From Parvularculaceae bacterium (lineage in GTDB: Bacteria > Pseudomonadota > Alphaproteobacteria > Caulobacterales > Parvularculaceae): a stretch of 64,000 bases of DNA. Below, piece after piece: positions 44,330-52,115 of the stretch. The notes beneath the pieces were generated by a model, which was not told the origin of the DNA, did not search any database, and worked only from the letters and a program-made list of their open reading frames with translations. The stretch lies in contig JANQMJ010000017.1 in NCBI GenBank assembly GCA_028280115.1, forward strand, positions 186,001 to 250,000, in the 5' to 3' direction. Positions within the stretch are counted from its first letter, which is position 1. The number at the start of each line of letters is the position of its first letter. Both the position numbers and the translations under genes were made by a program.

Positions 44330-44634
44330 AGTTTTTGACTGTTCCAAGCTTTCCAAATTTCCTGCGCAATTCCTCGGTATTTTTCTTTTGGGCCAGCTAT
44401 TACAGGATCAAACCATTTTGAGAATTCCTGATGCACAATATCCAGAACAATATCTTCACTCAACACGCCTTTAAGGCGAGGCAAAATCGTGCCAACTTCC
44501 GGTTCATATTCGTCGGTGTTTGCGCCAAAGTTTATGCCGATAGGGTCGTGACGGAATAGTATTTCACTAATTTCGCGATAGAGTTCTCGATATTGCGCCC
44601 TCAACAATCGTCGATTTTCGCGTTCGGTTGTCAC
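44326..44634 (-). CDS. AT-rich inserted gene, hypothetical 102-residue protein
   Basis: The GTG start at 44634 overlaps the maiA TGA stop (GTGA), and the TGA stop overlaps the next ATG (ATGA), so it is translationally coupled on both sides. Its GC content (by eye about 45%) is far below the 64% around it, which suggests recent transfer. The product is a soluble helical protein: LLRAQYRELYREISEILFRHDPIGINFG, NTDEYEPEVGTILPRLKG, LDIVHQEFSKWFDP and YRGIAQEIWKAW. I recall similar small stand-alone proteins with DPxGxxF and EYxPExxTILPRL motifs in unrelated bacteria, without known function. Confidence 0.8.
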   Translation of the reverse strand: MTTERENRRLLRAQYRELYREISEILFRHDPIGINFGANTDEYEPEVGTILPRLKGVLSEDIVLDIVHQEFSKWFDPVIAGPKEKYRGIAQEIWKAWNSQKL

Positions 44635-45275
44635 GATCCGCCCGCCGCGTCCGGCTGGATTTCGGGGCGGGCTTTTGCAAAGGCGGGATGGGTCTGACAG
44701 CGCTCGTAGATTTCGTTCATGCGTTTGAGCCCTGAAACATCTATGCCGAAGCGCATGGCGCCGTACATCTGCGGCACGAGGCAACAGTCGGCCATGGTCG
44801 GCGTATCGCCGATGCAATAATCGCCGGCGGTCTTAGCGATCATTTTTTCGACTGCGGCCATGGCGCCGCCGGGAAACCGGTTGAGCCAGGCCTTCATGGC
44901 CTCGTCGTCGAAACCCCCGTCGGTTTTCAAAAAAAGCTGCACCCGGCGGTTCATGAAGGGCTGGGCCTCGCAGGCAAGGGTTGCGGCGACGGCGCGGGCG
45001 TTTGCGCAGGCGACCGGATCGTCCGGCAGGATCGGCGGCGCCGGGAACGCCTCTTCGAGATATTCCATGATCGCCAGGGACTGGGTCAGCACCGCGCCGT
45101 CATCGGTTTCGAGCGCCGGCACAAGCCCATGGGGATTGCGCGCAAGATAGGCCTTACTCGTCTGTTCGCCTTCCAGCAGGTTCACCGGCGCATAGTCGTA
45201 ATCGAGCCCTTTAAGCGCCAGGGCGATGCGCACGCGATAGGTCGCGCTCGACCGCCAGTATCCGTATAGTTTCAT
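44631..45275 (-). CDS. maiA: Maleylacetoacetate isomerase
   Basis: 214 residues from the ATG at 45275, which gives the usual zeta-class GST start MKLYGYWRSSATYRVRIALALKG with the SSxxYRVRIAL motif. Others are NPHGLVPALE, ILTQSLAIMEYLEE and IGDTPTMADCCLVPQMYGA. It isomerises maleylacetoacetate to fumarylacetoacetate in tyrosine breakdown, which fits hppD located 1 kb away. The other genes of the pathway (hmgA, fahA) are not in the window. Confidence 0.94.
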   Translation of the reverse strand: MKLYGYWRSSATYRVRIALALKGLDYDYAPVNLLEGEQTSKAYLARNPHGLVPALETDDGAVLTQSLAIMEYLEEAFPAPPILPDDPVACANARAVAATLACEAQPFMNRRVQLFLKTDGGFDDEAMKAWLNRFPGGAMAAVEKMIAKTAGDYCIGDTPTMADCCLVPQMYGAMRFGIDVSGLKRMNEIYERCQTHPAFAKARPEIQPDAAGGS

Positions 45276-45414
45276 GGTTTTGCCTGCACCGATAAAATTT
45301 GCTTCAAACTTATCGCGCATTCTTCTCGGTTTTTCCAATCTCTCACGCGACAAAATCGATGCGGGACTTATTCCCGGCGATTTGGCGAATGTTTAGAATG
45401 GGGCGATCAGCAAA

Positions 45415-46071
45415 ATGGCAATGCGCTTTCGTAAACAGGACGGGCCCAGCCCTTCGGAATTAGCCTCGCCGCGTCTGGCCAAGATGATGGCCAAAAAAGC
45501 AGCGCCCGCGCCGAAACTGGCGCCGCCCCAGCCGGTCGCCGAAGCGGTCCAAGCGCCCGCGCCGGCAGCTGAAACATTCGAGCAAGCGGTCGAGACCATC
45601 GAAGAGGTCGAAGACATCGCCGCTATAGAAGCGGTGGAAGAAGAGGCCGTCGCGGCGGAAACAGTCGTTCCCGAAGAAGAACCCGCGCCGGCGGCGCAAG
45701 CGCAAGAGCCGATCCCCCAGGCTACGCCCCAACCGGCGCCCCAAGCCGCGCCTATCCCCGTGCCGTCGCGCGCCGGCGATCCGACCGACGATGAACGCTG
45801 GGCCCGTGAAAATCTGCGCTGGAACGGCGACAAGCCTTTTCTCGACCTCGCCAATGTGATCCGCGTTTTGGAGCGTCACCCGGATTTCAACAGCCGCTTT
45901 CGCTATAACGATACGATCAGCAAGGTGCTCGACCGCGGCTCGGTGATGCCCGACTGGCGCATGATGGATGTCTGCGCCACGGTTCAGGAACGGTTCCTGC
46001 CCGAGGTCCCCGAAGAGACCTTCCTGCGGGCGCTCGCCGCCCACGCCAACCGCGCGACCGCCAAAAAATAA
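45415..46071 (+). CDS. Hypothetical protein with disordered linker and VirE-like C-terminal module
   Basis: 218 residues. Residues 1-125 are low complexity, rich in Pro, Ala, Glu and Val, with no membrane segment. The last 85 residues are folded: ENLRWNGDKPFLDLANVIRVLERHP, then FRYNDTISKVLDRG, DWRMMDVCATVQERFLPEVPEETFLRALAAHANR. The combination (gKP..LaNV...L..hP, ..f.yN.....v, D...v...vQe.fl.evs.etf..Al...A..nr) resembles the N-terminal helper region of VirE/phage primase-helicases. No P-loop is present, so this would be a domesticated or regulatory remnant. This is an inference from memory. Confidence 0.6.
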   Translation: MAMRFRKQDGPSPSELASPRLAKMMAKKAAPAPKLAPPQPVAEAVQAPAPAAETFEQAVETIEEVEDIAAIEAVEEEAVAAETVVPEEEPAPAAQAQEPIPQATPQPAPQAAPIPVPSRAGDPTDDERWARENLRWNGDKPFLDLANVIRVLERHPDFNSRFRYNDTISKVLDRGSVMPDWRMMDVCATVQERFLPEVPEETFLRALAAHANRATAKK

Positions 46072-46139: not shown

Positions 46140-46237
46140 CCCCTCTCCCTTGAGGGAGAGGGGCCGGGGGTGAGGGTGCGCACTCATCCCTCACGCTCAT
46201 TCCCTCACCCCTAACCCCTCTCCCAAGGGGAGAGGGG
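46140..46237. repeat. Structured repeat R6
   Basis: Two hairpins flank an inverted repeat: CCCCTCTCCC/GGGAGAGGGG at 46140-46163 and CCCCTCTCCC/GGGGAGAGGGG at 46215-46237, with GGGGGTGAGGG (46167-46176 region) complementary to CCCTCACCCC (46203-46212 region). Similar CCCCTCTCCC elements are common in many proteobacteria. Only one copy is seen here. Confidence 0.8.
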
Positions 46238-46262
46238 AATGGCGTCGTCATGGAGTCGACAG

Positions 46263-46286
46263 AATTAGTAACATATGTTACTAATT
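46263..46286. promoter_or_regulatory. Perfect 24-bp palindrome, putative MarR operator
   Basis: AATTAGTAACAT is followed directly by its reverse complement ATGTTACTAATT. It lies 50 bases before the hppD start, and a MarR-type regulator gene lies right behind hppD. A palindrome of this size with TTAGTAAC half-sites is a good operator candidate for that regulator. Confidence 0.7.
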
Positions 46287-46334: not shown

Positions 46335-47402
46335 ATGGCCGACCTTTTTGAAAATCCTATCGGCACCGATGGCTTTGAATTCGTCGAATATACCGGCGGC
46401 GATCCAGACGCGCTCGCCGCGCTGTTCGACCAGCTTGGGTTCACGGCGGTCGGCCGGCACCGGTCGAAGGACGTCATTCATTACCGGCAGGGCGATATCA
46501 ATTTCCTCTTGAATCGCGAAGAGACCGGCCAGCCGGAAATCTTCCGCAACCAGCACGGCGCCGGCGCCAACGCCATGGCGTTCCGCGTCAGGGACGCCCA
46601 GCACGCCTTCAACGAAGCGGTCAAACGCGGCGCCAGGCCGATCGAAGCCAAGGCCGGTCCCATGGAACTCAACATTCCGGGCATTGAGGGCATCGGCGGG
46701 CTCAACGTCTATCTCGTCGACCGCTACGGCGCGCGGACGATCTATGATGTGGATTTCGAACCCATCAAGGGCACCGATCCGGCGAAAAATTCCGCCGGCC
46801 TGACCTATATCGACCACCTGACCCACAATCTGCACCGCGGCAATATGGATAAGTGGGCGGCCTATTACGAAGACATCTTCAACTTCCGGGAAATCCGCTA
46901 TTTCGACATCGAAGGCAAACTGACCGGTCTTGTGTCGAAGGCGATGACCTCGCCCTGCGGCAAGATCCGCATCCCGCTTAATGAAAGCCAGGACGACAAA
47001 TCGCAGATCGAGGAGTTCCTCAAGCGCTATAAAGGCGAAGGCATTCAGCATATCGCGCTGGGCACGGACGATATCTACGCGTCCGTCGAAGATCTGCGCG
47101 GCCGCGGCGTGCCGTTTCAGGATACGCCCGATACCTATTACGACAAGGCGGACGAACGCGTTCCCGGCCATGGCGAGGATCTGGAGCGGCTTCGAAAGAA
47201 CAGCATCCTGATCGACGGCGCGCCGACGCAGGGCCAGGGCCTTTTGTTGCAGATCTTCACCCAGGATGCGATCGGGCCGATCTTTTATGAAATCATCCAG
47301 CGCAAGGGCAATGAAGGCTTCGGCGAGGGCAATTTCAAGGCGCTTTTCGAATCGATCGAGGAAGATCAGATCCGCCGCGGCGTCCTGAAAGAAACCGCGT
47401 AG
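46335..47402 (+). CDS. hppD: 4-hydroxyphenylpyruvate dioxygenase
   Basis: 355 residues from the ATG at 46335, with AGGGAGAG 8 nt upstream. The iron-dependent enzyme converts 4-hydroxyphenylpyruvate to homogentisate. Metal ligands are His in YIDHLTHN (about 157), His in GIQHIALGT and Glu in IFYEIIQRKG. Both vicinal-oxygen-chelate halves are complete. It is the second tyrosine-catabolic gene here (with maiA), probably controlled by the MarR protein encoded downstream. Confidence 0.97.
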   Translation: MADLFENPIGTDGFEFVEYTGGDPDALAALFDQLGFTAVGRHRSKDVIHYRQGDINFLLNREETGQPEIFRNQHGAGANAMAFRVRDAQHAFNEAVKRGARPIEAKAGPMELNIPGIEGIGGLNVYLVDRYGARTIYDVDFEPIKGTDPAKNSAGLTYIDHLTHNLHRGNMDKWAAYYEDIFNFREIRYFDIEGKLTGLVSKAMTSPCGKIRIPLNESQDDKSQIEEFLKRYKGEGIQHIALGTDDIYASVEDLRGRGVPFQDTPDTYYDKADERVPGHGEDLERLRKNSILIDGAPTQGQGLLLQIFTQDAIGPIFYEIIQRKGNEGFGEGNFKALFESIEEDQIRRGVLKETA

Positions 47403-47411
47403 GCGCGCGCG

Positions 47412-47897
47412 GTGCCTGTTGCGTCAAAAAAAGCTGCGCCGACACAGCGTCAAAAGTCTCGCACGCTCGTCCTTGAGCGCTTTGCGCCCTATCGCCTTGT
47501 CGCGCTGGGCCATGCGATCAGCGGCCGGCTCGCCCGCGCCTATGCCGATGAGAATCTCACCGTGCCGGAATGGCGCGTGCTCGCCGTGATCGCCCAGGCC
47601 GACCGGGTCGCCGCGCGCGACGTGGTGCGCAAGACGCCGATGGACAAGATGATGGTCTCCCGTGCGGTGGCGAGCCTTGAAGAAAACGGTTTTGTCCGCC
47701 GGGAGACCAACGCCAGGGATCGCCGCGTCAACATGCTTTCGCTGTCGCGCGACGGCCGCGCCCTGTTCGAGCGCGTCGCCGCGCTGGCGCTTGATTACGA
47801 AGAAAACCTGCTTGCGGCATTGTCGCCTGCCGAACGGGCCGCCTTCGACAATGCACTGGCGAAACTGGAGCAGCGGGCGTGCGAAAACGACGCCTGA
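47412..47897 (+). CDS. MarR family transcriptional regulator
   Basis: 161 residues from a GTG start. Winged helix: ENLTVPEWRVLAVIAQADRVAARDVVRKTPMDKMMVSRAVASLEENGFVRRETNARDRRVNMLSLSRDGRAL with the DxR wing (ARDRR) and recognition helix. It starts 10 bp after hppD, so it is in the same operon and probably autoregulates through the palindrome at 46263. MarR regulators of tyrosine catabolism are known. The coupled lipase gene follows with a 19-bp overlap. Confidence 0.92.
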   Translation: MPVASKKAAPTQRQKSRTLVLERFAPYRLVALGHAISGRLARAYADENLTVPEWRVLAVIAQADRVAARDVVRKTPMDKMMVSRAVASLEENGFVRRETNARDRRVNMLSLSRDGRALFERVAALALDYEENLLAALSPAERAAFDNALAKLEQRACENDA

Positions 47898-48883
47898 GTC
47901 TTTTCCGTCGCCTGAAAGCTTGGCGGCGCAACTTAACGCGCACGCCTTTGCTTGCCATCGGCGCCGGCCTTTTCCTTTCCGGATGCGTTTCCTTTCCCGA
48001 TGCGCCGGCGCCGGTCGCCCCGCCGGTGCTTGCGGGCAATGCGGTTCAGAGTGTCGACGGCGCGCTTTTGGGCGTTCAATCCTGGCCGGCGGAAAACCCG
48101 CGCGCGGTTATTCTCGCCGTGCACGGCATGAACGATTATTCCAACGCTTTCGCCCTGCCGGGCGCCTGGTGGGCGGCCCATGCGGAGATTACGACCTATG
48201 CGATCGATCAGCGCGGCTTCGGCCGATCGCCGGGTTTTGGCCGCTGGCCGGGGACGAAAACCCTGACCGCCGATCTGCGCGCCGCGCTTGAAGCGGTGCG
48301 CGCCGCCCATCCGGATCTGCCGATCTATGTGCTCGGCCATTCCATGGGCGCGGCGGTGGTCATCGCGGCCGAGGCGGAAAGCCCGCTTGCGGCCGACGGG
48401 TTTATGCTCGCCGCGCCCGGCGTGTGGGGCGGCAAGGCGCTGCCGCTGGCTTATCGCATGGCGCTTAATATCGCCGCCGGCCTTGCGCCGGGCAAAACGC
48501 TGACCGGTGAGCGCGCCCGCCGTCAGGCCACGGACAATATTGATGTCCTGCGCGCCATGGGCCGCGACCCGCTGGTGATCAAGGAGACCCGGCTCGATGC
48601 GGTGCTCGGCGTCGTCCGCGTCATGGGCAAGGCCTATGGCCGCGCCGGCGCGGTCGACGGCGACGTCCTGTTCCTCGTCGGCGCCAGGGACGAAATCATT
48701 CCGGTCAAGAAGATGATGAAAACCGCCGGAAAGTTCGAGGGCGACGTCACGCTGCGGCGCTATCCGCAAGGCTGGCATCTTCTGTTTCGCGATTTGCAGG
48801 CGCAAACCGTGTGGCGCGACGCGGCGCAATGGATCGACGAACGCACGCAAGCGGCGCGGCAAGCGCGCGAAGACAGGCGTTAG
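47879..48883 (+). CDS. Lipoprotein alpha/beta-hydrolase, monoacylglycerol lipase type
   Basis: 334 residues from a GTG that overlaps the MarR gene by 19 bp. The leader has the lipobox LFLSGC, so Cys36 is lipidated. The hydrolase fold shows AVHGMNDYSNAF (HGxxxxS), DQRGFGRSPG, nucleophile Ser in GHSMGAAVV, Asp in GARDEIIPV and His in GWHLLFRD. This is the monoacylglycerol lipase/lysophospholipase pattern. The substrate is unknown. It probably shares the hppD-marR transcript, which ends at R1-b. Confidence 0.87.
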   Translation: MRKRRLSLFRRLKAWRRNLTRTPLLAIGAGLFLSGCVSFPDAPAPVAPPVLAGNAVQSVDGALLGVQSWPAENPRAVILAVHGMNDYSNAFALPGAWWAAHAEITTYAIDQRGFGRSPGFGRWPGTKTLTADLRAALEAVRAAHPDLPIYVLGHSMGAAVVIAAEAESPLAADGFMLAAPGVWGGKALPLAYRMALNIAAGLAPGKTLTGERARRQATDNIDVLRAMGRDPLVIKETRLDAVLGVVRVMGKAYGRAGAVDGDVLFLVGARDEIIPVKKMMKTAGKFEGDVTLRRYPQGWHLLFRDLQAQTVWRDAAQWIDERTQAARQAREDRR

Positions 48884-48920
48884 CGTTTCGCGCAATATCA
48901 CTGCATGTCCCGTCCTCTCC

Positions 48921-49023
48921 CCGTGCATTCCCGCGCAGGCGGGAATCCAGCGAACAGATAATGTCGGGCGAAGCCCGTCTTTTTTCTTTTACTGGATCCC
49001 CGCCTGCGCGGGGATGAGCGGGG
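48921..49023. repeat. Dispersed repeat R1, copy b (reverse orientation)
   Basis: Same structure as 20956-21059 read on the other strand: arms with CCCGC...GCGGG hairpins and ATCCAG/CTGGAT ends around an A/T-rich core. It lies between the convergent lipase and msrA genes. The sequence between the hairpins is the best conserved part of the family. Confidence 0.9.
48965..48990 (+). terminator. Intrinsic terminator in the R1-b core
   Basis: CGGGC-GAA-GCCCG is followed by TCTTTTTTCTTTT, a plausible Rho-independent terminator for the hppD-marR-lipase transcript. Confidence 0.65.
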
Positions 49024-49090
49024 ATATGGATTACGCGATCCGCAACCGACCCTAGGGGCGGGCCTGAAGCGCGCTGCGAAAGAAAGGGAA

Positions 49091-51942: not shown

Positions 51943-52115
51943 CCCGCTCATCCCGGACGCGCTGCAGCGCCCCGGATCATCATCCGGGGTGATGCTGCGC
52001 AGGTTCGAAGCATGCTTCGAACGGATCCAGTAAAAGAAAAAAGACGGGCTATGCCCGACATTATAGGTGTGCTGGATTCCCGCTTTCCCCCGATCAGGTC
52101 GGGGGGAATGAGCGG
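51943..52115. repeat. Dispersed repeat R1, copy c (longest)
   Basis: Ends CCCGCTCATCCC and GGGAATGAGCGG with the conserved core ATCCAGTAAAAG, A-run, CGGGC hairpin and CGACATTAT. The left arm is lengthened by extra hairpins (CCGGATCATCATCCGG and TTCGAAGCATGCTTCGAA), and the right arm by CCCCCGATC/GGTCGGGGGG. It lies between convergent queD and the minus-strand gene ending at 52154. Confidence 0.88.
52032..52057 (-). terminator. Intrinsic terminator in the R1-c core
   Basis: On the minus strand CGGGC-ATA-GCCCG is followed by a T-rich run (complement of 52042-52032). It is oriented to end the transcript of the gene at 52154-52837. Confidence 0.6.

Follow-up and report, generated by a model that had tools for sequence, protein, structure and literature searches.

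A conserved palindrome as the predicted operator of a MarR-family regulator of tyrosine and homogentisate breakdown in a Parvularculaceae bacterium

In Pseudomonas putida the homogentisate pathway is under a local repressor of the IclR family, HmgR, for which homogentisate acts as the anti-repressor, and in the Alteromonadales/Pseudoalteromonadales a MarR-family protein, HmgS, is the predicted regulator of hmgAB, with 6 sites in 3 genomes (PMC5343134). The MarR-like protein Saro_0803 of Novosphingobium is described as occupying an A/T-rich site of 22 bp that covers the -10 box, from which an aromatic ligand, resveratrol, releases it (PMC10046596). For the alphaproteobacterial regulator and operator analysed here, no description was found in the open-access literature, subscription journals being mostly outside the scope of the search. 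The locus lies in a 64-kb stretch of a Parvularculaceae genome, referred to below as the window, and its features are listed in Table 1. A sequence-only reading had proposed that a palindrome before hppD is the operator of the MarR protein encoded by the next gene, and on the sequence evidence this proposal is supported in its main point. We consider it highly likely that the MarR protein, encoded two genes on from the palindrome, binds it, represses hppD-marR together with a distant hmgA-like gene, and is freed by a compound of the pathway. Computation yielded the site itself, a two-gene regulon, the conservation and exclusive placement of the site, and covariation of its half-sites with residue 80 of the protein.

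Table 1. Features around the palindrome (positions in the window).
Feature	Position	Strand	Evidence or remarks
maiA, maleylacetoacetate isomerase	44631-45275	-	TIGR01262 257.8 bits, cut-off 171
218-aa open frame between maiA and the predicted operator	45415-46071	+	zero NCBIfam or Pfam matches
Candidate weak promoter	46256-46284	+	TCGACA 46256-46261, 17-base spacer, TACTAA 46279-46284; overlaps the predicted operator
Predicted operator	46263-46286	none	core 20-mer TTAGTAACATATGTTACTAA at 46265-46284, half-sites GTAAC
hppD, 4-hydroxyphenylpyruvate dioxygenase, predicted target	46335-47402	+	TIGR01263 416 bits, cut-off 277
marR, predicted regulator, second gene of the hppD operon	47412-47897	+	PF12802 47.2 bits, PF01047 42.5 bits, both over cut-off
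Alpha/beta hydrolase (serine aminopeptidase S33/lipase-like)	47879-48883	+	PF12146 163 bits

The palindrome, AATTAGTAACATATGTTACTAATT, is 24 bp long; its arms, AATTAGTAACAT and ATGTTACTAATT, are 100% complementary with no spacer between them. It is present and uninterrupted where the earlier reading had placed it, with 48 bases between it and the hppD ATG, and its surroundings are GC-rich as claimed (63% G+C across the window). No other perfect palindrome with arms of at least 11 occurs in the 64-kb window, and 100 order-1 Markov simulations gave an expectation of 0.06 per 64 kb for perfect palindromes with arms of 12; for arms of at least 10, two were observed against 0.39 expected. A second long perfect palindrome, GTTCGAAGCATGCTTCGAAC, with arms of 10, is found at 52003-52022. 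Since a single perfect 24-mer is unremarkable in a 3-Mb genome, it is position and conservation that decide. The window also contains G+C-rich inverted repeats of the dispersed intergenic kind at 46140-46224 and 48918-49024 (CCCCTCTCCC.. and GGGGATCC/CGCGCAGGCGGG..), and the repeat at 46140-46224 sits immediately upstream of the predicted operator.

The spacing of hppD, marR and the hydrolase gene is operon-like: marR, the next gene after hppD as claimed, begins 9 bases past its stop, and the hydrolase start overlaps the end of marR. By its position, the hydrolase gene would be co-transcribed with marR in the window genome. In relatives the hydrolase match is located anywhere from an overlap with marR to about 1.2 kb downstream (often at 0.1-1.2 kb), and some of the loci viewed have no hydrolase in view. 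The lipase had been counted as a member of the marR-controlled unit; because of this variable spacing and its absence from some viewed loci it was rejected as a core member, and it appears to be tied to the regulon only loosely. maiA is separated from the predicted operator by 987 bp, with the 218-aa frame in between, and the best 20-mer in 45201-45420 has 9 mismatches in 20, in agreement, for this genome, with the statement that no second copy is seen before maiA. Among same-genus relatives maiA is in view in 21, and in 10 of them (nine loci with hppD, and genome G008) its start lies 47-60 bases from the site on the opposite side, so that one operator can serve both hppD and maiA.

Other tyrosine genes had been named as the place to look for further copies, and one was found there. 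Allowing up to 3 mismatches, the 24-mer has two matches in the whole 2.99-Mb genome: the palindrome itself and a site at G000:C18:10556-10579, which precedes the start of an hmgA-like gene on the minus strand by 24 bases. This copy, ATGGTAACAAATGTTACTAA, is slightly asymmetric. The reversed control of the full 20-/24-mer gave 0 places in the same genome; a gapped 16-position pattern with 3 mismatches found the same 2 places against 8 for its reversed control, and the argument therefore rests on the full 20-/24-mer.

The hmgA-like gene encodes a protein of 374 aa (L002:355-1476, minus strand), which matches PF20510 (HgmA_N) with 62.9 bits, the gathering score being 20.2; the Pfam search reported no match to HgmA_C. 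Its top PDB matches are three homogentisate 1,2-dioxygenases (E 1e-13 to 1e-8), and alignment with 1ey2 places His, Glu and His in the three columns that we take to be the iron-ligand positions of that enzyme. By its HgmA_N domain and these H/E/H ligands the protein belongs to the homogentisate 1,2-dioxygenase fold family. It was rejected as a TIGR01015 equivalog (76.6 bits, cut-off 510.75); nothing else in the genome matches TIGR01015, which makes this protein the leading candidate for the ring-cleaving step that links HppD to MaiA. Relatives of the protein, 60-72% identical, adjoin MarR genes in Acetobacteraceae, Sphingomonadales and some Gammaproteobacteria. For fumarylacetoacetase, no match over the TIGR01266 cut-off (375.3 bits) was found in the own genome, the best reaching 38 bits at C11:8014-8262; as there is also no third site within 3 mismatches, fahA was rejected as a further target. 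The last step of the pathway may be handled by another hydrolase.

Comparison with related genomes shows where the site is kept. With up to 3 mismatches, the 20-mer has 42 sites in 25 of 28 same-genus genomes (Marinicaulis group), 23 of them at hppD (counting one in G008, where the locus is reduced to maiA and marR), 19 before the hmgA-like gene and 0 elsewhere; the reversed control in the 28 genomes found 1 place. Order-wide, with up to 2 mismatches, there are 32 sites in 29 of 398 genomes (28 at hppD and 4 at hmgA), with 0 for the reversed control. The mean pairwise identity of the hppD sites is 0.94 (21 of 22 rows; L063 was left out for too little upstream sequence and G008 is not included) versus 0.36 and 0.31 in the 40-base flanks before and behind; for the hmgA sites it is 0.99 (19 rows) versus 0.44 and 0.34, and the variant ATGGTAACAAATGTTACTAA is identical in 18 of the 19. 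Conservation in relatives, which the sequence-only reading had made a touchstone of its proposal, thus holds: the palindrome is kept upstream of hppD at 22 of 22 genus loci of the ~86-91% hppD type. It is likewise found at all 19 starts of the hmgA-like gene seen in the genus. In two genomes of another family (G214 and G329), hppD and a divergent marR, 32-35% identical, have the identical 20-mer between them. Conserved at hppD and recurring at hmgA, the palindrome very probably serves the linked MarR protein as its operator.

The association between the site and this protein can be followed across the genus. Of the 25 genomes with the site, 22 also have a close MarR relative (E below 1e-30), and none of the 3 genomes without it (G003, G017 and G020) has one; in G009, G021 and G023, assemblies that are 86-89% complete, the site is present and the MarR gene was not found. 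In G008 hppD is gone from the operon, and the site still lies between maiA and marR; as this is a metagenome contig, an assembly error is possible. The bases past the site in G008 (L122/L041) still resemble the first hppD codons. G003 and G020 have instead a 55-57% identical hppD, adjoined by a divergent gene for a more distant MarR protein, and their inverted repeats are different ones; G008 and G021 carry this alternative hppD-MarR module as a second set. In the alternative module (L081-L084, from these four genomes) the MarR proteins are 35-39% identical for the matches seen, and the repeats are partly tandem, for example ATAGTTGTAAATAAAACTAG followed by TTGCAATAGAAACTAT.

The hmgA target is less uniform. 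In G014, G018 and G022, which have both the MarR protein and the site at hppD, hmgA is of the canonical type and no 20-mer upstream of it comes closer than 8-9 mismatches; hmgA of either type was not found in G008, G012, G019 and G027 though MarR is present (G019 is listed as 100% complete). Control of hmgA is therefore not universal: what stays constant is the predicted control of hppD together with marR, hmgA being a frequent second target. Taken together, the co-occurrence, the retention of site and marR without hppD in G008 and the covariation of a residue with the half-sites, described below, support the link between the site and the MarR protein.

The protein contains a winged helix-turn-helix domain (PF12802 and PF01047 over gathering score), and, as judged by sequence, it has the palindromic putative operator near its own operon that is expected of the MarR family. 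An AlphaFold2 model (mean pLDDT 76.7) consists in this region of a helix at 68-74, a helix at 79-91 (pLDDT of the block about 95) and a two-stranded wing at 95-111. Residue 80 starts the helix at 79-91, and the model suggests that the recognition helix spans about residues 79-91, with Met80 as the covarying residue; by comparison with SlyA, residue 80 is presumably a DNA-contacting position.

A genome scan gave 70 MarR relatives, and 249 of 296 sampled Sphingomonadales genomes hold one at E 1e-22. Searching 13 distant genomes with RGTWWCANNTGWWACY found 12 places in 10 of them, all 12 at marR-hppD, marR-hmgA or hmgA; the reversed pattern found 6 places in 4 of the 13. Half-sites are GTAAC in Parvularculaceae and GTTTC/GTTAC in Acetobacteraceae, other Rhodospirillales and Gammaproteobacteria. 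In the first alignment, residue 80 (in the motif DKM) is Met with GTAAC in 10 of 10 cases, and Val or Ala with other half-sites in 8 of 8. Further loci were then read: 130 from Sphingomonadales (30 fetched and 100 more in list order, G402 and later rows being out) and 79 from the own order. A generic site pattern, written after the motif had been seen, found a site in 108 of the 124 loci, among the 209 read, with hppD or hmgA in view; the 16 siteless loci (15 Val, 1 Ala) were dropped. The Sphingomonadales set has 4 Met and 126 Val at residue 80. GTAAC occurs twice in the 3 Met loci that have a site and in 0 of 83 Val sites (Fisher p 1e-5, ignoring relatedness); the remaining Met locus, L277, lacks a site, and neither hppD nor hmgA is in view there. 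The own-order loci have 57 Val, 21 Pro, 1 Ala and 0 Met, and GTAAC occurs twice in none. At least one GTTGC half is present in all 15 Pro loci; it is not confined to Pro, since 20 of the 90 sites with Val contain one too. The Pro80 loci L372-L407 (motif DKP) have a third type of operator, ATAGTTGCATTTGCAACTAA or ATAGTTTCATTTGCAACTAA, between the hppD and MarR genes.

Combining the 108 loci with 8 of the 21 rows of alignment A1 and 12 distant loci gave 128 proteins, for which a tree was built without the residue-80 column. All 18 proteins with Met80 are paired with GTAAC/GTAAC, as against 0 of the 110 with another residue. On this tree each of the two traits requires 5 changes, and there are 5 independent contrasts, of which 2 are well supported and both of these concordant; with so few independent changes a sign test cannot reach 0.05. 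It is quite conceivable, though we would not yet rely on it, that residue 80 alone sets the half-site across a widespread alpha- and gammaproteobacterial family (Met with GTAAC, Val or Ala with GTTTC/GTTAC, Pro with at least one GTTGC half), the pair having switched together several times, so that a single substitution could swap operator specificity.

In the mechanism that we propose, a MarR dimer would sit on the palindrome, each subunit on one GTAAC half-site, and would so cover the likely hppD-marR promoter and keep both hppD and its own gene from being transcribed. The second copy, ATGGTAACAAATGTTACTAA, would give the same control at the distant hmgA-like homogentisate dioxygenase gene, and in related species one shared copy may also serve the divergent maiA. 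A pathway compound would release the protein, the best candidates being 4-hydroxyphenylpyruvate and homogentisate. Binding, autoregulation and the inducer are thus what we infer, as is repression rather than activation. A scan for consensus promoters found zero promoter-like sites. In relatives a TTG precedes the 20-mer at a constant spacing, 10 bases in the hppD set and 19 in the hmgA set; the window has GTC in its place. Judged by this spacing, the predicted operator would cover the -10 region and the spacer before it, where a repressor site is expected.

The direction of action is the point on which sequence is silent, and some MarR proteins act as activators. The MarR protein might accordingly bind the palindrome and yet work as an activator or dual regulator, which we think unlikely: the site spans 7-36 bases past the conserved TTG, the stretch expected to hold the spacer and -10 element, and it is over these that repressors usually have their sites. 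Slightly less probable in our judgement is that some other transcription factor, one that happens to control the homogentisate pathway, has the palindrome as its operator. Conservation and regulon content would look identical if this were so, and the three genomes that hold the site with no detected MarR gene would be explained by it. What speaks for the linked protein instead is that sites are absent exactly from the genus genomes that lack it, though two of these (G003 and G020) have an hppD of the other type, that G008 keeps site and marR without hppD, and that the half-sites follow residue 80 of this very protein.

An RNA hairpin, acting as attenuator or terminator, or a mere chance feature is the least credible of the explanations, and we regard it as very improbable. 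A 24-base palindrome could indeed fold, and one perfect 24-mer within 3 Mb is nothing improbable, but a loop and a T-run are absent and no terminator-like match overlaps the palindrome. Site variants in relatives (TTGGTAAC..GTTACTAA and AAAGTAAC..) break the outer symmetry without compensation while GTAAC/GTTAC stays unchanged, and the conservation and exclusive placement of the site led us to reject both hairpin and chance. We therefore retain the palindrome as the putative operator of the linked MarR protein.

An anonymous MarR gene thus becomes a named, testable predicted regulator of tyrosine and homogentisate breakdown in a group of marine Alphaproteobacteria that has been little studied, and its predicted regulon gains the hmgA-like gene and, in relatives, maiA. 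The result also supports placing a short, divergent HmgA-like enzyme at the missing ring-cleavage step. Across this family of regulators, nature supplies a set of cases where letters of the operator have changed along with a residue of the recognition helix, which is useful for a MarR recognition code; such a code reportedly lags behind those of the GntR and IclR families, for which there are co-evolution studies (PMC4494728 and PMC8222616).

Among solved structures, the best relative of the profile is PDB 2fa5 (MarR/EmrR family, E 2.8e-34), which we take to be XC1739 of Xanthomonas campestris. Its recognition motif is DKV; as it has Val, not Met, at residue 80, an operator of the GTTTC/GTTAC type is predicted for it. 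HpaR is a MarR-type repressor of an aromatic-acid pathway, the homoprotocatechuate operon, with distant similarity and a different pathway, and the regulator was rejected as HpaR (TIGR02337, 43.4 bits, cut-off 121.2). It was also rejected as a member of the Saro_0803 family (NF053777, 44.4 bits, cut-off 200). Saro_0803 shares the MarR-like type and the A/T-rich site over the -10 box but differs in its GCAATA..TATTGC repeat and its target, the nov1 promoter (PMC10046596). HmgR has the role proposed here, that of local repressor of the homogentisate pathway, whereas its protein family is unrelated to the MarR protein here (PMC5343134). The regulator is analogous to HmgS: both are MarR-family proteins predicted from comparative genomics as local regulators of homogentisate-pathway genes; HmgS is confined to one gammaproteobacterial group and to hmgAB, whereas the regulator presented here is alphaproteobacterial, with hppD-marR, the hmgA-like gene and maiA as its predicted targets (PMC5343134).
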